Assembly (NCBI RefSeq): GCF_021184045.1
Contig: NZ_CP073710.1
Location: 1 to 64,000 of the forward strand
Reading direction: 5' to 3'
DNA from: Methanococcoides orientis
GTDB taxonomy: Archaea > Halobacteriota > Methanosarcinia > Methanosarcinales > Methanosarcinaceae
Length of the DNA: 64,000 nucleotides
The translations under genes were made by a program, and so were the position numbers. The notes under the pieces were generated by a model that did no database searches, was not told the DNA's origin, and was given only the letters and a program-made list of their open reading frames with translations. Of the stretch, positions 11,405 to 19,951 are shown piece after piece (position 1 is the first letter of the stretch; every line of letters starts with the position of its first letter).

Positions 11405-12079
11405 ATGAACATGGTGCTTCTCACTGTTGTGGGAATCCTGATGGCCATTCTTCTGTTTGGTGTTAAGACCGGGATTGGCTGTGGTTTTTCCAATCGCAGC
11501 ACAAAAGAGATCCTTGCGATCGGTGGCAGCTATTTCATTTTGTCATTGATAATAGGCAGTCTTATTGGATATGTAGATCAGTCAAACCTTGACCTGATCG
11601 CAAGCATGGGAATGTCCCTTCACGTTCTGGTTGCGTTGCTCCTCATCGGGGCAGGTATCTACACCCAGAAACAGTGGAACTGTGGTTGTGATGTTTCCCA
11701 TCGCACATTCCTTGTGATTTCCCTGCCATGTCCGGTCTGCCTGACAGCGCTCTTCATCTCCTGTATGCTTCTGGCAACATCTCTTGAGATGAGTGGGCTC
11801 TGGATCGGGTTGCTTGTGGGCGTTGTTTTCTTCGTCTCTGTGGTTGCATCTTCTCTTCTTTGCAAGAAGTTGAACAAGACCCCGGAGACACTTGGTAACG
11901 TCATGATGATCCTTGGTATCTACTATCTCATGGGAGCCATCCTTGTACCTACTTACATTAAAACAAAACAGATGAACATCCCTCCGTATTCCGCACCGCC
12001 TTTGGAGATTCTTCCATTCGTGGTCTTTGCAATATTCATTGCCGGGGGATTTGTTCTTGATAAAATTAGGAGTAACTAA
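11405..12079 (+). CDS. DUF2162 putative transporter (integral membrane)
   Basis: A 224-residue protein with about seven hydrophobic helices, matching the methanogen DUF2162 'putative transporter' group. Cysteines near the membrane boundary stand out: KTGIGCGF at residues 21-28, WNCGCDVSH near 96, and LPCPVCLTALFISC around 110-125. These could bind a metal or form disulfides. It is first in an operon with ExbB-like, ExbD-like and CobN-like genes, separated by 2, -4 and about 138 bases. By context it could move a metal ion or tetrapyrrole or serve as the energised partner; this is inference. Confidence 0.82.
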   Translation: MNMVLLTVVGILMAILLFGVKTGIGCGFSNRSTKEILAIGGSYFILSLIIGSLIGYVDQSNLDLIASMGMSLHVLVALLLIGAGIYTQKQWNCGCDVSHRTFLVISLPCPVCLTALFISCMLLATSLEMSGLWIGLLVGVVFFVSVVASSLLCKKLNKTPETLGNVMMILGIYYLMGAILVPTYIKTKQMNIPPYSAPPLEILPFVVFAIFIAGGFVLDKIRSN

Positions 12080-12081
12080 AT

Positions 12082-12705
12082 ATGGCTATTGATTCTTCTT
12101 TGTTCCAGATAATGTATACTGCTTCAGCTGCCATGCTGTATCCGGTGGTCATACTTTTGATCCTGGCAGTTACGGTATCGCTTGGTCTGATCGGTGAGTT
12201 CATCTCGGAATATGCAAAACGTCATCGAAATGTCAAGCAACTTGAGCAGATAGGCAGAAACGTCAAGGAGAATGTAAACAAATCCTCCTACGATGAAGCC
12301 GCATCACATCTTCTTAAGCTTGAACAGAACCAGCTTGTCACATCGTTTGCAAACGATGCAGCAGATCATCTGAAAAAGAACACTCTTTCTTCTATAGGAT
12401 GGCTGTCCGAAGAGTATGAAGTCAGAATGACAAAACGCCTGGAGCAAACAAAGATACTGTCTACAGTAGCCCCTATGCTCGGACTGATGGGAACTTTAAT
12501 TCCACTGGGTCCCGCACTCATTGGTCTTGCACAGGGTGACATTCTCCAGCTTGCTAACAACCTGATGATCGCTTTTGCTACAACAGTGCTTGGTCTTTTT
12601 GCAGGTATCGTGGGGTACGTACTTACATTGATCAGGAAGAGGTGGTACTGGCAGGATATGGCAGACATTGATTATCTTGTTGATTCTTTGGAGACCGAAC
12701 AATGA
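12082..12705 (+). CDS. MotA/TolQ/ExbB-family proton channel subunit
   Basis: A 207-residue membrane protein with an N-terminal helix (MLYPVVILLILAVTVSLGLI), a cytoplasmic domain, and two C-terminal helices carrying the family core (LSTVAPMLGLMGTLIPLGPA, FATTVLGLFAGIVGYVL). This is the ExbB/TolQ layout, in which the complex uses the ion gradient to do work on a partner outside the membrane. The start follows AGGAGTAACTAAAT. Its stop overlaps the next start (ATGA), so it is translationally coupled to the DUF2149 protein, the likely ExbD equivalent. No TonB-like gene is visible. Confidence 0.9.
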   Translation: MAIDSSLFQIMYTASAAMLYPVVILLILAVTVSLGLIGEFISEYAKRHRNVKQLEQIGRNVKENVNKSSYDEAASHLLKLEQNQLVTSFANDAADHLKKNTLSSIGWLSEEYEVRMTKRLEQTKILSTVAPMLGLMGTLIPLGPALIGLAQGDILQLANNLMIAFATTVLGLFAGIVGYVLTLIRKRWYWQDMADIDYLVDSLETEQ

Positions 12706-13061
12706 GAAGGAAAAGGTATCATCGACCGGGCATCCTCTATGAAGAAGAAGATCAGAACCCTCTTACTGGAGTGGCTAACCTCTTCGATGTTGCCATGGTT
12801 TTCTCAGTAGCTCTATTGATAGCTCTTGTGATGTCTTTCCAGCTCCCTGAGCTTCTCAGTCCTACTGAAGATATCACTATCGTAAAGAATCCTGGTCAGG
12901 AGAATATGAAGATCATAGTCAAGGAAGGGCAGGATATAGAAGTGCTGAACATGACCGAACAGATCGGTGGAGGTACTGGTGAAGCACTGGGTACTGCTTA
13001 CAAACTGGCGGATGGTCGTGTTATCTACGTTCCTGATTCTGGGAATGAGACGAGCACCTGA
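12702..13061 (+). CDS. DUF2149 protein, ExbD-like partner
   Basis: A 119-residue protein with one transmembrane helix (FDVAMVFSVALLIALVMSF) after a 30-residue cytoplasmic N-terminus and an outside domain ending YKLADGRVIYVPDSGN. This is the topology and size of ExbD/TolR. In ExbD the helix carries a proton-accepting Asp; here the Asp in NLFDVAMVF at the start of the helix is the candidate. It overlaps the ExbB-like gene by four bases, which supports a two-part motor. What it drives is probably the CobN-like protein encoded next; this is inferred from gene order. Confidence 0.82.
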   Translation: MRRKRYHRPGILYEEEDQNPLTGVANLFDVAMVFSVALLIALVMSFQLPELLSPTEDITIVKNPGQENMKIIVKEGQDIEVLNMTEQIGGGTGEALGTAYKLADGRVIYVPDSGNETST

Positions 13062-13135
13062 TTCTTTCGAGTGTGTGGAAATTATTAGTGAAAATAGAAT
13101 GAATTTAGAATAAAGTGTGTGGATAATGAAAGTTT

Positions 13136-13177
13136 AGACATCCCGGTACAGCCTGCAAGCAAAGTGCCGGGATGTCT
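13136..13177 (+). promoter_or_regulatory. 14-bp stem hairpin in the leader of the CobN-like gene
   Basis: The arms are AGACATCCCGGTAC (13136-13149) and GTGCCGGGATGTCT (13164-13177), complementary throughout with one G-U pair and a 14-base loop. It lies 22 bases before the ATG at 13200. There is no T-run after it, so it is not a standard terminator. It may be an mRNA processing or stability element that lets the CobN-like gene be expressed differently from the three genes upstream. Confidence 0.7.
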
Positions 13178-13199
13178 TGCACATTATCGGGTGGATAAT

Positions 13200-16100
13200 A
13201 TGCGAAACATGAAACATCAGTTACTACTATTAAGTGTTTTGATTTTATTGGCGTTTTCGCCAGTGGTATCGGCAGGAGAACAGGTAAACATTACTTTGAT
13301 CACTTATAGTGATGGAGCAGTAATAGATTATGCTAAGGAAGCAACCCCTTACAATGAAAGCATAAATGTTACCTATCACTCCACGAAGTACAATCTTTCT
13401 GAGATCGACCTTAGCAATCAGGATGTCATTTTTACATATATGCTGTGGCATCCTAAGTATGACGAGTTCGCAGATGAGATGGAAAAAGCAAAGGCTAACG
13501 GAACTGTGCTCATTAATATTGCAAGTTATATCAATTCTTCAATATTGGATTCGATGTATGACTACGATTTCTCGGGTGGCCAACCATATGAGAGTTTTGA
13601 TGAACAATACTTCTTCAACATGGGTATGCAGGAAGAGTTCCTGAAAGAGAATGCTGAGAATTTCCTTGTGTATCTGGCCAAGAACTATAGCAGCAAGACA
13701 ACTTTGACAAGCAGCTGGACCTATGCTGAACCTATATTGCTTCCGCAGGGTATCTATCATCCTGACACAGATGCATATTGGTTCGATACTCCTGAAGACT
13801 ATTTCGAATGGTACCAGAACGATTCCAATGGTGAACATTTCATATATGATCCTACAAAGCCAACTGTGGGAATATGGTTCCATAAGTCCGATTACAAGGA
13901 TGGGAATACAGAGGTAGTAGATGCTCTGATACGTGATCTGGAAAGCAAGGATTGCAATGTCATTGCCGGGTTTGATACTTTCCATGATATTTCCGGTTTC
14001 TACTGTGATGGAAATGGCACACCTTTAGTCCAATGTATGATTTCTCTTAAGAGCTTCGGACTCGATGTTGGTGAAGAAGAGGGTTATGGGCATGATGAAT
14101 TGACAAACCTCAATGTTCCTGTGTTAAAAGGAATGGTGGCTGATCCTTCTTCTGGTGATCCTGCTGATGCAAACAGGGGTATTTCCAATCAGGAAGCAAC
14201 ACGTAAGACCGTTCTTCCGAACATCGACGGTATGTTCGAGTACATCGTACTTGGTCACCAGGAAAAGATCTCCTGGGGAGTATATGAATACGTACCAAAT
14301 GCTGCCCAGATCGACTGGATGGCAAACCGTTCGATCGAATGGGCTGAGCTCAAAAGGAGTGATGACGGGGACAAAAAGGTTGCTGTGATCTATTACAACT
14401 ACCCTCCTGGTAAGGACAGCATTGGAGCCAGCTATCTGGACAGCATGGCCAGTATTATGAATCTCCTTGACAAAATGAATGAAAGTGGTTACTACCTTAC
14501 CGATACTCCGGAAAACACTACTGATCTGCTTGATAAAGTTAAAAAACAAGGTATAAATGTTGGTTCCTGGGCACCGGGTGTTCTCGATGAGATGGTCGAG
14601 AACCGCACAGAATGGGGTGTTCAGCTCATTCCTGTTGAGACCTATCATCAGTGGTTCGAGCAGGAGATACCGGAAAACCTGCGTACTCAGGTAATTAATG
14701 AATGGGGGGAGCCCTGGTCCGAAGATTTCACTGAAGATAAAATGTTTATGATCTGGGAGAATGAGTCCGGCAGGTACATTGTTATTCCTACTGTACAGTG
14801 TGGTAATGTCTGGCTGATGCCTCAGCCTGCTCGTGGAATGACGCAGAATGACAATGTGCTGTATCACAGTTCATTGGTGCCTCCGCCACACCAGTACATA
14901 GCTTTCTACCTCTGGCTGAATGACGATTGGGATGCTGATGCAGTTATACATCTGGGTACCCATGGAACCCATGAATGGCTTCCTGGACTTGCTTATGGTA
15001 TGAACAGAACTGCAGATTGGGCACCTTTATTGCTTCAGGACATGCCTAACATTTACCCATATATTGTGGCAAATGTTGGTGAAGGACTGACTGCGGAATA
15101 CAGGGGAAATGCGCTGATCATCGACCACCTTACGCCAACTCTTGAGCGCGGTGGTCTGCACGCAGAGATGGCAGACCTCTCAAGCAACATACAGACATAT
15201 TACGATCCCGGAATGGCCGATGAAGTAAGGGTCGGTTACAGGCTGACCATCATTAACCAGATGGTAGATCTCAACCTGCACGAGGACCTGAATGTTGATG
15301 AGGCTACATTGGAACTGTATCGTACCAATGACACTCAGTTCCAGCTATTTTTGAAGAATGTACTCCATGAGTATCTGGAAGAGATCTCTGAGGAGAACAT
15401 ACCTTACGGATTCCATGTTCTTGGTGAAGTTCCACCTATGAACGCTTCAGGTCCGGAAGGTGACCAGATGTCAGCAATGGTGAGGGCAATGCTGGGAAGT
15501 TCATTCCAGAATAACGTTGCAGGCGCCTTCTATTACAATGAGGCAGAGTATCCGATGGGTATTCCTCTGAATGATACTAAGATCGATCTGATGGTATGGG
15601 AAGTTGTGACCAACGGCAACAGTCCTGCTAATGCTCAGGATCTTGTATATGGTCTTAATAATTCCTCGATCACATCTGATCTTGAAAGGGGAATTCTTTA
15701 CAAGGATAACCTGATCGCTTCCGCCGATGAGCTGGATCGTGTAATATCTGCACTTGACGCTGGTTTCGTTCCGGCAGGCCCGGGCAGGGACCCTATCCAG
15801 AATCCGGATTCCATCCCAACCGGACGTAATTTCTATGGTGTGGATTCCAGATTATATCCTTCGGAAGTGACCTGGGAATTGGGTTCATTGCTTGCCCAGA
15901 GCATGCTTGAGGATTACTACGAAAAACACGGTACATATCCAGAGAAAGTTTCATTTTCAAGATTTGGTGTCGAGTTCATAAGGGATCATGGTACACTTGA
16001 AGCAGAAGTTCTCTACCTGCTTGGAGTAAAACCTGTTTGGGATGAGACTTCTAAACAGGTCGTAAGTCTTGAACTTATGAATGAGTCGGAACTTTTGCCA

Positions 16101-17519
16101 AACTATGATCCATCAATGCCGGGTAGACCACGTATCGATATTGTATACACCACTGCGGGTATGCGTGATGCTTTCCCTGACAAGATCAAGATGATCGATG
16201 AGGCGGTAAGGATGGCAAATGAGGCACCTGCAGGCAACTACACAAATTACGTCAACCAGAGTACCCAGAATGTCAAACAGGCTCTGATAGATGCAGGCTA
16301 TGATGAAGAAACGGCTTCTCAGCTTTCTACCATGCGTTGTTTTGCAGTGCGTGATGGGACCTATGAGATCGGAGTTGCTAATGCAATAGGTGCAAGCGGT
16401 ACCTGGGACAATGAGGCAACGATAGCTGAACTCTACCTGAACAAAATGGGTTATGGATATGGTACTGATATCTGGGGCTATCAGAGTTCGGATCTCCTTA
16501 CTGAGAACCTGAGAAATGTGGGTGCTTCCGTACATTCAGATTCATCTAACCTGTATGATACTCTGGACAATGACGATGTTTTCCAGTATTTCGGTGGACT
16601 GAACCTTGCAACAAGGCATGTTTCCGGTGAGACTCCTGAGATGTATATCTCAGACACGAGGAATCCTGCTGAAAGTGGAATGGTCACTATGAAGGAATAT
16701 CTGGACAAGAACCTCCGTTCAAGATACTACAATCAGGAATGGATCGAAGGAATGCAGGCTTCAGGTTATGCAGGTGGTAAGATGTTCTCAGAGTTCGTGG
16801 AGAATCTCTGGGGATGGGAAGTCACAAATCCTGAACTTGTTGATGATAGTGATTGGGAAATGGTCTATGAAAAGTTCATAAATGATCCTGAAATGCAGGA
16901 GTGGTTCCAGGAGAACAATCCTGATGCTTATCAGTCAATGACTGGAAGGATGCTCGAGGTCATACGCAAGGATTATATGGATGATCCATCCGATGAGATG
17001 TTCCAGAACCTGATGAAGGAGTATGTCGAGTCGGTAGTTGAGAATGGGGTTTCCTGTTGTCATCACACCTGCGGAAATCCGATGCTTAACAGCTATGTGG
17101 TTGAAGGCCTGATGTCGGTTCCTGGTGTTGTTAGCGAAGAAACACTGGCTGAGTTCATCAAGAAGATAGAAGAGGCAAATCAGGCAAAATTGGAAATGCC
17201 GTCTGAATCTTCTCCGAAGTCTTCTTCCAGCAGCGGTGGGGTTGGCAGTGCACAGATTGTGAATTCCTCGACTACAGGTTCCGGATCAAACCAGACTGCT
17301 ATCTCCGATGGTGGTTATGGTGACTCATTGGATGATCCGTCGCTTGATTCTTCAACATCAAATGAAGGGTATGTAGAGGGCTATGAGATGACCAAGGAGA
17401 ATGTCAGGAAAGATGAATCCGGTGGTTCTTCTTTCTCAGGAAGTGACGTCTTCGGAATCGTATTTGTACTTGCTGTTGTTGGTGTGATGTACCTTGGGTT
17501 CAGGAGAAGGCGACTCTAA
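13200..17519 (+). CDS. Exported, membrane-anchored CobN-like chelatase
   Basis: A 1439-residue protein of the CobN/BchH large-subunit chelatase family. It starts with a signal peptide (MRNMKHQLLLLSVLILLAFS, cleavage near VVSAGEQ) at an ATG with a GGGTGG ribosome-binding site. The CobN core is clear: AVIHLGTHGTHEWLPGLAYG, followed by YIVANVGEGLTAEYRGNALI and the later PAGPGRDPIQNPDSIPTGRN and SRFGVEFIRDHG regions. The last 150 residues are a Ser/Gly/Asn linker, one transmembrane helix (VFGIVFVLAVVGVMYLGF) and a basic RRRRL tail. Classical CobN inserts Co into a corrin ring in the cytoplasm with CobS/CobT. This one should sit outside the cell, with an ExbB/ExbD-like pair instead of AAA partners. 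It may insert, remove or capture metal or tetrapyrrole at the surface. Confidence 0.92.
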   Translation: MRNMKHQLLLLSVLILLAFSPVVSAGEQVNITLITYSDGAVIDYAKEATPYNESINVTYHSTKYNLSEIDLSNQDVIFTYMLWHPKYDEFADEMEKAKANGTVLINIASYINSSILDSMYDYDFSGGQPYESFDEQYFFNMGMQEEFLKENAENFLVYLAKNYSSKTTLTSSWTYAEPILLPQGIYHPDTDAYWFDTPEDYFEWYQNDSNGEHFIYDPTKPTVGIWFHKSDYKDGNTEVVDALIRDLESKDCNVIAGFDTFHDISGFYCDGNGTPLVQCMISLKSFGLDVGEEEGYGHDELTNLNVPVLKGMVADPSSGDPADANRGISNQEATRKTVLPNIDGMFEYIVLGHQEKISWGVYEYVPNAAQIDWMANRSIEWAELKRSDDGDKKVAVIYYNYPPGKDSIGASYLDSMASIMNLLDKMNESGYYLTDTPENTTDLLDKVKKQGINVGSWAPGVLDEMVENRTEWGVQLIPVETYHQWFEQEIPENLRTQVINEWGEPWSEDFTEDKMFMIWENESGRYIVIPTVQCGNVWLMPQPARGMTQNDNVLYHSSLVPPPHQYIAFYLWLNDDWDADAVIHLGTHGTHEWLPGLAYGMNRTADWAPLLLQDMPNIYPYIVANVGEGLTAEYRGNALIIDHLTPTLERGGLHAEMADLSSNIQTYYDPGMADEVRVGYRLTIINQMVDLNLHEDLNVDEATLELYRTNDTQFQLFLKNVLHEYLEEISEENIPYGFHVLGEVPPMNASGPEGDQMSAMVRAMLGSSFQNNVAGAFYYNEAEYPMGIPLNDTKIDLMVWEVVTNGNSPANAQDLVYGLNNSSITSDLERGILYKDNLIASADELDRVISALDAGFVPAGPGRDPIQNPDSIPTGRNFYGVDSRLYPSEVTWELGSLLAQSMLEDYYEKHGTYPEKVSFSRFGVEFIRDHGTLEAEVLYLLGVKPVWDETSKQVVSLELMNESELLPNYDPSMPGRPRIDIVYTTAGMRDAFPDKIKMIDEAVRMANEAPAGNYTNYVNQSTQNVKQALIDAGYDEETASQLSTMRCFAVRDGTYEIGVANAIGASGTWDNEATIAELYLNKMGYGYGTDIWGYQSSDLLTENLRNVGASVHSDSSNLYDTLDNDDVFQYFGGLNLATRHVSGETPEMYISDTRNPAESGMVTMKEYLDKNLRSRYYNQEWIEGMQASGYAGGKMFSEFVENLWGWEVTNPELVDDSDWEMVYEKFINDPEMQEWFQENNPDAYQSMTGRMLEVIRKDYMDDPSDEMFQNLMKEYVESVVENGVSCCHHTCGNPMLNSYVVEGLMSVPGVVSEETLAEFIKKIEEANQAKLEMPSESSPKSSSSSGGVGSAQIVNSSTTGSGSNQTAISDGGYGDSLDDPSLDSSTSNEGYVEGYEMTKENVRKDESGGSSFSGSDVFGIVFVLAVVGVMYLGFRRRRL

Positions 17520-17572: not shown

Positions 17573-17697
17573 TTTTAATCTGTTTTATTCTACATTTATT
17601 ATCATCTAAAACAATTACAATTAAAAATAATTAAAGTTTGTTTTATTACGAATGAGTTTTTACTACTTCATTACCTGATCTTCTGGTGTTGATCGAA

Positions 17698-18858
17698 ATG
17701 ATAACTGATCCAATTTGTAAAGCTCATGTAACTGAGAATAGTGCCTATGTTACGGACTATGGCGGCAAGAAGTACTACTTTTGTTCTGCGGAATGCAAGA
17801 ATAAGTTCGATCAGCTAGAAAAGAGTGTAATACGCCTGAAGCGGAATATTGGTGAGCGCGAAAGGATCTCTTTTGGTAAGCTGAAAAAAGAGATAATAAA
17901 TCTTGGGATATGCACTTTGTGCGGTGCCTGTGTCTCTTCCTGTGAGTCCATAGCATTTGTGAACAATCAGCCTAAACTGATCGATAAATGTACTGCCTGT
18001 GGTGTTTGCTATAACCAGTGTCCAAGAACGGTTACAAGGGAAGAGGACCTTGTAGGAAAGCTCCGGTTCGGATATGCAGCGAAGTCTTCAATTCCCGGTT
18101 TTAAGGGTCAGGATGGCGGTGTTGTTACCTCACTGCTTGCATACGGGCTTGAGGAAGGCCTGCTGGATTGTGCCATCGTCACAAGGAAGTCGAACGACGA
18201 ACCTTGGAAAGCTGAACCTTTTATTGCAACGACTGCAGATGAGGTCCTGGAGTCTGCAGGTAGCATCTATTCCCATAGCATGACAATGGAGCCTCTTATG
18301 AGCGCGATCAAGCAGGGTATGAGGAGCATTGCATTCGTTGGTCCTAGCTGCAATATAGATGCTGTTCACAAGATGCAGACCAGTCCCTACGGCTTTCTTC
18401 ATCTGTTCCTGAGGGCAAAGGTCCTTAAGTTCGGCCTGTTCTGCATGGACAGCTTCGAGCATGAAGGAATCAGGGAATTTGTGGAAACGCATGGAATGGA
18501 TCTCAATGACATCAATTCAATGAAGATCCGTAAAGGGGTCTTTGAGTTTGGTATGGATGATGGCATAAAGAGCTATGATCTCTCTGAACTTGATCAGTAC
18601 CGGTCTACTTCCTGCAAGTTCTGTACTGATATGGCTGCTGAGAACTCAGATATTTCCTTCGGAGGCGTGGGTACTCCGCAGGGCTGGAGCACTGTACTGG
18701 CGCGCTCATCGATAGGGTAGGAAATTCTCTGTGAGGCGATCGACAATGGGTACATTGATGCAAGGCGCCTTGAGAAGAAGGAAATGGAACGTGCCGTCAA
18801 TCTTGCGAAGATGAAGAAGGTACAGATGTATGCCCTGAACCGGAGGCAGAAGGCCTGA
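17698..18858 (+). CDS. YHS-ferredoxin-FrhB-like F420 oxidoreductase subunit with in-frame amber (Pyl) codon
   Basis: Residues 1-40 form a metal-binding YHS/TRASH-type domain (DPICKAHVTENSAYV ... YYFCSAECKNKF). Two [4Fe-4S] motifs follow (CTLCGACVSSC, CTACGVCYNQCP), then the F420-hydrogenase beta (FrhB) N- and C-domains. FrhB proteins pass electrons between F420 and Fe-S partners. The frame meets TAG at 18718-18720 (codon 341) inside the conserved FrhB C-domain, right after TVLARSSIG. It resumes with EILCEAIDNGYIDARRLEKK and ends at TGA 18856-18858, for 386 residues including the amber. Since mtbB in this window also carries TAG, I read it as pyrrolysine. Without read-through the protein lacks about 45 residues. 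A GTG at 17686 is an alternative start. The partner enzyme is unknown. Confidence 0.8.
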
Positions 18859-18930: not shown

Positions 18931-19002
18931 TGGACCGGTCGGGAATTGAACCCGAGGCCTCTACCATGCCAAGGTAGCGATCTTCCCCTGATCTACCGGC
19001 CC
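18931..19002 (-). tRNA. tRNA-Ala (GGC)
   Basis: The complement folds as a cloverleaf: acceptor GGGCCGG with CCGGTCC, anticodon arm CTACC-TTGGCAT-GGTAG giving anticodon GGC, and T-loop GGTTCAATTCC. The 3' CCA is encoded (18928-18930 on the complement). Confidence 0.95.
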
Positions 19003-19178: not shown

Positions 19179-19252
19179 GGGCCCGTAGCTTAGCTAGGTG
19201 GAGCGTTCGGCTGATAACCGAAAGGTCCTGAGTTCGAATCTCAGCGGGCCCA
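19179..19252 (+). tRNA. tRNA-Ile (GAT)
   Basis: The acceptor GGGCCCG pairs with CGGGCCC. The anticodon arm TTCGG-CTGATAA-CCGAA gives anticodon GAT, and the T-arm contains GAGTTCGAATCTC. CCA is encoded at 19253-19255. A TATA-like TTAATATACTA at about 19115-19125 is the likely promoter. Confidence 0.95.
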
Positions 19253-19579: not shown

Positions 19580-19951
19580 ATGAATAACGGAGAATTTTAT
19601 ATGGATGATGAGGACAGTGAGATGGTTTTGCTCCTTCAGAAACTGAATGTTTCTAAACCTGTGGCAAAGACACTTGCTTGTTTATTAACTGCTGAAAAGA
19701 TAACTTCCCGTGAGGTCGAAATGATGTCACGTTTAAGGCAACCTGAGGTTAGTATTGCCATGACCTATCTTCAGAAGAACAACTGGGTAGAGGTTGAAGA
19801 AGTAAAGAAGAAACAGGGCAAAGGCAGGCCTATTAAAGTGTATACTCTCACTGTTCCAATGGATGAGATCATTAATACTATAGAGCAGAAGGTTATATCT
19901 GAGAATCAAATGATGCTGGAGAATATTGAAAGGCTGAAAGACCTTTCATAA
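19580..19951 (+). CDS. Small winged-helix transcriptional regulator (TrmB/ArsR-like)
   Basis: A 123-residue protein made of one winged helix-turn-helix (residues about 15-85: LNVSKPVAKTLACLLTAEKI, TSREVEMMSRLRQPEVSIAM recognition region, KKKQGKGRPIKVYTL wing) and a C-terminal helix likely to mediate dimerisation (EIINTIEQKVISENQMMLEN). Methanogens carry several such short TrmB-like regulators with unknown ligands; no effector domain is present. The GGTGG sequence before the ATG is a plausible ribosome-binding site; the ATG at 19601 is an alternative. The upstream palindrome is a likely binding site. It stands alone between tRNA-Ile and the aconitase-family gene. Confidence 0.85.
   Translation: MNNGEFYMDDEDSEMVLLLQKLNVSKPVAKTLACLLTAEKITSREVEMMSRLRQPEVSIAMTYLQKNNWVEVEEVKKKQGKGRPIKVYTLTVPMDEIINTIEQKVISENQMMLENIERLKDLS

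Follow-up and report, generated by a model that had tools for sequence, protein, structure and literature searches.

A candidate proton-driven surface chelatase of the HmuS/BtuS class, with a structured leader RNA, in Methanococcoides orientis

HmuS, from the hmu operon of Bacteroidota, is a demonstrated heme de-chelatase, NADH-dependent and ATP-independent, whose activity is abolished by the mutation H538A (PMC12583661). The same authors assign the accompanying proteins HmuU and HmuV to TonB and describe the archaeal use of their homologues as unclear (PMC12583661), and a study of P. gingivalis HmuS found HmuV to be without a family (PMC13227078). A third type of CobN, BtuS, was proposed in 2003, according to the passage of PMC6460266 that cites it; in M. 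barkeri the abundance of two BtuS proteins responds to the iron/sulfur source (PMC10846266). The 2012 genome paper on Trichlorobacter (Geobacter) lovleyi pointed out that its cobN has no accompanying CobS/CobT and did not settle what it does (PMC3403914). Here we describe an archaeal operon related to these systems, at positions 11405-17519 of the first 64,000 nucleotides of Methanococcoides orientis contig NZ_CP073710.1 (the window). With a probability of roughly 45%, we read it as a surface, proton-motive-force-coupled, extracytoplasmic metal de-chelatase for a corrinoid or other cobalt/nickel tetrapyrrole. The observations behind this reading are gene content, conservation, topology signals, homology to HmuS, HmuU and HmuV, a catalytic His and Glu, a motor Asp, cobalt, nickel and corrinoid neighbourhoods, and RNA covariation.

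The four genes are contiguous on the plus strand, and Pfam matches identify them as the preliminary description, made from the letters alone, had placed them. The features are as follows.

11405..12079, plus strand: DUF2162 protein with seven transmembrane helices (PF09930, 226 bits)
12082..12705, plus strand: MotA/TolQ/ExbB-family proton-channel subunit, HmuU-type (PF01618, 39 bits)
12702..13061, plus strand: DUF2149 protein, ExbD-like partner, HmuV-type (PF09919, 124 bits)
13136..13202, plus strand: structured leader RNA, ending on the cobN ATG
13200..17519, plus strand: surface CobN-like (HmuS/BtuS-class) chelatase, 1439 aa (PF02514, 994 bits)
13200..13274, plus strand: signal peptide of the CobN-like protein, from its sequence
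14961..14963, plus strand: catalytic His codon of the CobN-like protein, equivalent to HmuS His-538 (H-x-G-x-H-G superfamily motif)
16575..16586, plus strand: Asp and Gln of the CobN-like protein at the places of HmuS His-1209/Glu-1212
17445..17516, plus strand: C-terminal transmembrane anchor of the CobN-like protein, ending GF-RRRRL, from its sequence

The cobN start is most likely the ATG at 13200 rather than the GTG at 13119, because the predicted signal peptide MRNMKHQLLLLSVLILLAFSPVVSA begins there and the structured leader fills 13136-13202.

Profile searches relate the archaeal ExbB-family protein to HmuU (E ~1e-57), DUF2149 to HmuV (~1e-41) and the CobN-like protein to HmuS (1e-243 or better), and on this evidence the three are homologues of HmuU, HmuV and HmuS. 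The earlier claim that an archaeon with one membrane encodes an ExbB/ExbD-like pair is supported, the single membrane being expected of the host from its lineage. The homology to HmuS, HmuU and HmuV also means that the unqualified term "undescribed system" in the preliminary description has to be given up, since HmuS is a proven heme de-chelatase and the BtuS class was already proposed in 2003. By its sequences the system is not wholly unknown. Its fourth component stands apart. HmuT is of DUF2162 size and is encoded directly before HmuU, a slot that DUF2162 fills in archaea; the identification of DUF2162 with HmuT was rejected, however, as hhalign gave a probability of 4.8% and no detectable relation. 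HmuY and HmuR were not found among the annotated neighbours of the window cassette.

How constant is this association? In the 148 genomes of the phylum that were searched, 68 DUF2149 matches were listed, in 51 genomes, while 45 genomes have DUF2162 (43 of them above its cut-off) and 95 have CobN. Every genome with an above-cut-off DUF2162 also has DUF2149, and both DUF2162 and CobN are nearby at 35 of the 68 listed DUF2149 matches, with a constant gap of ~700 bases for ExbB, and with CobN on the same strand in 32 of these 35 loci. The cassette is thus not a chance arrangement, and the genome-wide co-occurrence that had been suggested as a check is found. A comparison of 42 neighbourhoods showed wide recurrence for the DUF2162, ExbB, DUF2149 and CobN families only. 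A T. lovleyi plasmid repeats the window's gene order within a cluster of corrinoid genes. Family matches to CobN, DUF2149 and DUF2162 are all present in Methanosarcina acetivorans, an archaeon open to genetic work. The viral contigs searched contained no relatives of DUF2162 or DUF2149.

The CobN proteins themselves are of two kinds. Among 101 archaeal CobN proteins read at full length, 34 have a C-terminal membrane anchor, and 33 of these also have an N-terminal hydrophobic stretch. All 34 come from DUF2149-bearing genomes, compared with 27 of the 67 soluble proteins (Fisher p=2e-10), the other 40 soluble proteins belonging to genomes without DUF2149. The preliminary description had held that CobN relatives lacking ExbB/DUF2149 would count against a link between them: such proteins exist, but they are of the soluble, cytoplasmic type, and the 34 anchored archaeal ones all share their genomes with DUF2149. 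N-glycosylation sequons are about tenfold enriched in the anchored proteins (19.3 per 1000 aa, against 1.8 in the soluble archaeal ones, p=3e-16), which supports an extracytoplasmic location and, with the signal peptide and the C-terminal helix followed by RRRRL, agrees with the surface anchoring originally suggested. In a tree, the archaeal anchored CobN group with HmuS of Bacteroidota and the motor-linked bacterial forms, across a split from the soluble archaeal CobN and most soluble bacterial CobN, the support for this split being moderate (SH-aLRT, the approximate likelihood-ratio test, 84-89); a BchH and one soluble Marinobacter CobN form long branches near the anchored side. For an anchored CobN of Cupriavidus (locus L163), no motor gene was found in its 13-kb locus, the only region looked at. 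The M. orientis genome encodes a second anchored CobN (L068, 9222-14465; contig region 654690-658001), of 1748 aa and with CarboxypepD_reg-like N-terminal domains, which lies away from motor genes and has no leader RNA.

The active site both joins the window protein to HmuS and separates it from HmuS. With HmuS numbering checked on locus L110, the equivalents of H534, H538 and E577 are kept, as HLGTHG (H611, H615) and E655, numbered from the GTG at 13119, and a signal peptide and C-terminal anchor are present as in HmuS. In contrast, His-1209 and Glu-1212 of HmuS (LSLDHxxEFMGG) are not matched: the window protein has D1153 and Q1156, in a motif, DNDDVFQYFGG, that stands where HmuS has LSLDHVYEFMGG. 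At these two positions the archaeal anchored proteins have D in 28/34 and Q in 25/34, compared with H and E in 14/14 HmuS sequences. The head and neck heme ligands are also unmatched, with a gap at Met-79 and Ser at His-254, in a head alignment that is loose. The DD of the window motif, usually with its Q, is common to the motor-linked CobN of T. lovleyi, Pseudoalteromonas, Diaphorobacter and Comamonadaceae, the nikR-linked Azospirillum CobN having the HmuS-like DH..E instead. Because H534, H538 and E577 are kept but Met-79, His-254, His-1209 and Glu-1212 are not, the window protein, judged by its defining residues, shares the superfamily and architecture of HmuS, yet is not HmuS.

The genes around the cassettes speak for cobalt and nickel more than for heme. 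Plasmid pGLOV01 of T. lovleyi carries, in this order, TonB receptor, DUF2162, ExbB, DUF2149, CobN, exbB, exbD, tonB, TonB receptor, and the cassette adjoins cobT and BzaF genes. In Runella the genes lie within a hydrogenase-maturation cluster, in the order HypABF, TonB receptor, NicO-like, ExbB, DUF2149, CobN, HypCDE; the permease in the T slot is NicO/HoxN-like by weak, below-cut-off matches only, and this gene (L170, 7659-8285) also gives a weak match to DsbD_2 beside that to NicO. Azospirillum has CobN-ExbB-DUF2149 with an ATP-binding cassette (ABC) importer, a TonB receptor and NikR. Archaeal cassettes adjoin CbiMNQO or FecCD/ABC genes, and some of their neighbours resemble CbiT and CbiF, as read from N-terminal sequences only. 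One cassette beside CbiMNQO has a DsbD_2/MntP-like membrane protein encoded directly before DUF2162 (L094, 10626-11363). The cobalt, nickel and tetrapyrrole setting anticipated in the preliminary description is thus seen in CbiMNQO, FecCD, cobT/BzaF, Hyp and NikR neighbours, and it is from this setting that the substrate is read as a corrinoid or other cobalt/nickel tetrapyrrole.

These data bear on two alternatives, each of which we consider unlikely. The operon might be an archaeal HmuS, with heme as substrate and iron as the gain, which would fit the homology of S, U and V and the shift of M. barkeri BtuS abundance with iron/sulfur source; but the four HmuS residues not matched in the window protein, the replacement of HmuT by a protein of undetectable homology, and neighbours that are cobalt and nickel genes all argue against it. 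Or the CobN-like protein might be a receptor, not an enzyme, capturing whole corrinoids at the surface, with the motor driving their release to a BtuCD-type importer. FecCD/BtuD-type ABC genes do adjoin some cassettes, tandem paralogues sharing one motor resemble the many receptors served by one TonB, and the catalytic His is missing in 2 of the 34 archaeal anchored copies, which have Phe at the His-538 position, so that some paralogues may be binding-only. Most copies, the window's included, nevertheless keep H-x-G-x-H-G and E577, HmuS is an enzyme, and corrinoid uptake would leave the nickel-gene contexts unexplained.

In the motor pair, the ExbB-family protein carries the signature GLMGTLIPxGPAL and TT167-168, with conserved pore residues; DUF2149 has one transmembrane helix with an invariant NLFD29 (D29 in 44/44) and a short exterior domain with an invariant KNPG. 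D29 and GLMGTLIPxGPAL are conserved across domains of life. A profile search of DUF2149 against ExbD/TolR chains in the PDB gave no detectable match. Since pGLOV01 has a separate ExbB-ExbD-TonB set beside the cassette, ExbB/DUF2149 is unlikely to be a TonB energiser and probably powers the chelatase complex. DUF2162 has invariant K21, G25-C26 and P108-C109-P110-x-C112, and the invariant C26 and PCPxC would be compatible with metal or thiol-electron transfer. A known transporter fold for DUF2162 was rejected, Pfam and PDB profile searches having given chance matches only.

The pair is also found in other company. At 13 DUF2149 loci DUF2162 is present and no CobN match lies within 12 kb, some of these loci being at contig ends. 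Elsewhere ExbB-DUF2149 without DUF2162 or CobN directly adjoins genes for other surface proteins: an S-layer protein (L098, L099), giant CARDB/PQQ proteins (L101, L105, L106, L109, the L105 giant being assigned by clustering with L101), a Peripla_BP_2 protein (L083) or, in L107, a protein of the CARDB/NosD (beta-helix) type. Could ExbB/DUF2149 then be a general archaeal envelope motor, acting on DUF2162 or the cell wall, with CobN only co-regulated? We think this distinctly improbable: in the set of archaeal genomes DUF2149 accompanies every anchored CobN, the gene order is conserved from archaea to a Thermodesulfobacteriota plasmid, and CobN and the giant partners share a C-terminal anchor. 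That anchor, GF or GY with a basic end, occurs in 31/34 archaeal anchored CobN and in 6/8 partners of CobN-less motors, but in only 1/16 of the remaining anchored neighbours and in no HmuS (0/14); as the pattern was chosen post hoc, after the sequences had been seen, it is a lead, not a proven mark, for motor partners. The window and genome G030, whose ExbB proteins are 99% identical, differ in the type of CobN paralogue that fills the slot, a hint that a single motor has clients that can be exchanged.

Extracellular metal insertion, whether re-metallation or synthesis, is very improbable: CobN and ChlH families do insert metals, but this enzyme would work outside the cell without ATP or an AAA+ partner, in an organism that already has the biosynthetic chelatase CbiX. 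No soluble CobN was found in the M. orientis genome, and a ChlI/ChlD partner was rejected there, as the best of four weak Mg-chelatase ATPase matches, the only one examined, is the archaeal LonB protease.

In the de-chelatase reading that we prefer, the C-terminal helix would tether the CobN-like enzyme to the outer face of the membrane. There the enzyme would bind a metallated tetrapyrrole from the surroundings, most likely one with cobalt or nickel, such as a corrinoid, and would remove, or possibly exchange, the metal in its central cleft. ExbB/DUF2149 would be a motor like ExbBD and TolQR, powered by the proton motive force; it would drive conformational work in the anchored chelatase and so stand in for the AAA+ ATPases with which CobN and ChlH work in the cytoplasm. 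DUF2162 would probably serve as a conduit for the freed metal, or for electrons, through the membrane, and expression of the enzyme would be set at translation by the leader RNA. Several points weigh against this scheme. The window protein lacks both the second axial ligand (His-1209) and the heme site of the head and neck; nickel and corrinoid contexts both occur, so that the substrate is not pinned down; ExbB-DUF2149 is also found without CobN, so that the case for its coupling to CobN is one of synteny and co-occurrence; and AlphaFold models were too poor to help (predicted confidence score, pLDDT, 54 for DUF2149 and 48 for single-sequence DUF2162). Purified HmuS is, moreover, active in vitro without HmuU/V, so that the chemistry itself is not motor-dependent (PMC12583661). 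The work of the motor may therefore lie in loading, release or transfer and not in the chemistry.

The leader RNA at 13136-13202, between DUF2149 and CobN, comprises a covarying hairpin with the conserved loop GCC[TG][GC]CAAGCAA and a second small hairpin, TTATC/GATAA, that encloses a Shine-Dalgarno-like GGGTG; the element ends on the cobN start codon. With the stem arms aligned by hand, 94% of cells are paired and 9 of 11 pairs show a total of 29 double-sided changes, compared with ~9 in shuffles, none of 2000 of which reached this number. When the arms were aligned by machine, which left some rows out of register, the main measures still exceeded those of the shuffles of that alignment. A covariance model, R2, built with the named structure, found the leader in 23 of 41 Methanosarcinaceae genomes and, across the phylum, in 16 of the 148 genomes, every one Methanosarcinaceae; it is largely missing from the sister lineages g6 and g7. 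There are up to four copies per genome, and G012 has one for each tandem cobN. Of 30 matches collected, 24 have an ATG that opens a secreted CobN-like frame (BLAST) and 3 precede CobN by coordinates, the others being degraded genes or weak matches. One copy (L077, 12616-12678) precedes a secreted, anchored protein of 119 aa that looks like the product of a cobN that has lost most of its central part. Rfam covariance models, including the cobalamin riboswitch, gave nothing over the element at E<=1, and a known riboswitch upstream of cobN was ruled out on that basis. The leader is probably a new structured RNA, riboswitch-like in character, and looks like a translational control acting through a riboswitch or a protein.

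The leader RNA, and the motor pair beside surface giants that are not chelatases, were absent from the preliminary description, the overall reading of which is partly supported. We also offer, tentatively, a broader possibility: a modular, proton-driven archaeal surface machine in which one ExbB/DUF2149 motor would serve interchangeable anchored clients (chelatases stripping cobalt, nickel or iron; elsewhere S-layer/CARDB giants), with ATP-driven partners replaced, a riboswitch-like leader, and HmuU/HmuV powering HmuS or HmuT instead of TonB. Archaea without an outer membrane keep HmuU/HmuV beside the chelatase, and pGLOV01 carries a full ExbB-ExbD-TonB set in addition to this pair; for these reasons we argue that HmuU/V do not serve TonB, which would alter the model of heme-iron acquisition in Bacteroidota. 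The cassette gives work on HmuS archaeal partners, a cobalt/nickel context and testable residues, and a new structured RNA before a surface chelatase gene offers a direct way to get at the ligand. Methanogens depend on cobalt, nickel and iron, and to them the salvage of metal from tetrapyrroles would matter.

Downstream of cobN, at 17686-18720 (plus strand) of the window, a gene encodes a YHS domain fused to ferredoxin and FrhB/FpoF-like F420-oxidoreductase parts; a gene of this kind occupies the same position in locus L087, and its product is a possible electron donor. Beyond it lie tRNA genes at 18931-19002 (minus) and 19179-19252 (plus) and a gene for an MreA-family transcriptional regulator at 19580-19951 (plus).

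Compared with described systems, the locus is nearest to hmuYRSTUV, with which it shares an anchored extracytoplasmic CobN-family protein with catalytic His and Glu, the same ExbB subfamily and DUF2149; it differs in having no HmuY or HmuR, a single membrane, DUF2162 in place of HmuT, a motor-then-chelatase order and a leader RNA, and in missing the HmuS-specific heme ligands. The T. lovleyi pSZ77/pGLOV01 cluster (PMC3403914) has the same DUF2162-ExbB-DUF2149-CobN order and GF-basic C-terminal anchor, with its own motif DNDDFFQYLGG, but in a diderm host with TonB receptors, a separate ExbB-ExbD-TonB set and adjacent corrinoid biosynthesis genes. CobN of CobNST resembles the window protein in fold, superfamily motif and D/Q at the HmuS H1209/E1212 places, yet it is cytoplasmic, is driven by CobS/CobT and ATP, and inserts cobalt, whereas the window protein is predicted to be secreted and anchored. 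Finally, ExbBD, TolQR and MotAB likewise combine an ExbB-family subunit with a one-helix partner bearing an invariant membrane Asp, whereas the window pair occurs without TonB or TolA, in an archaeal host with neither outer membrane nor peptidoglycan.

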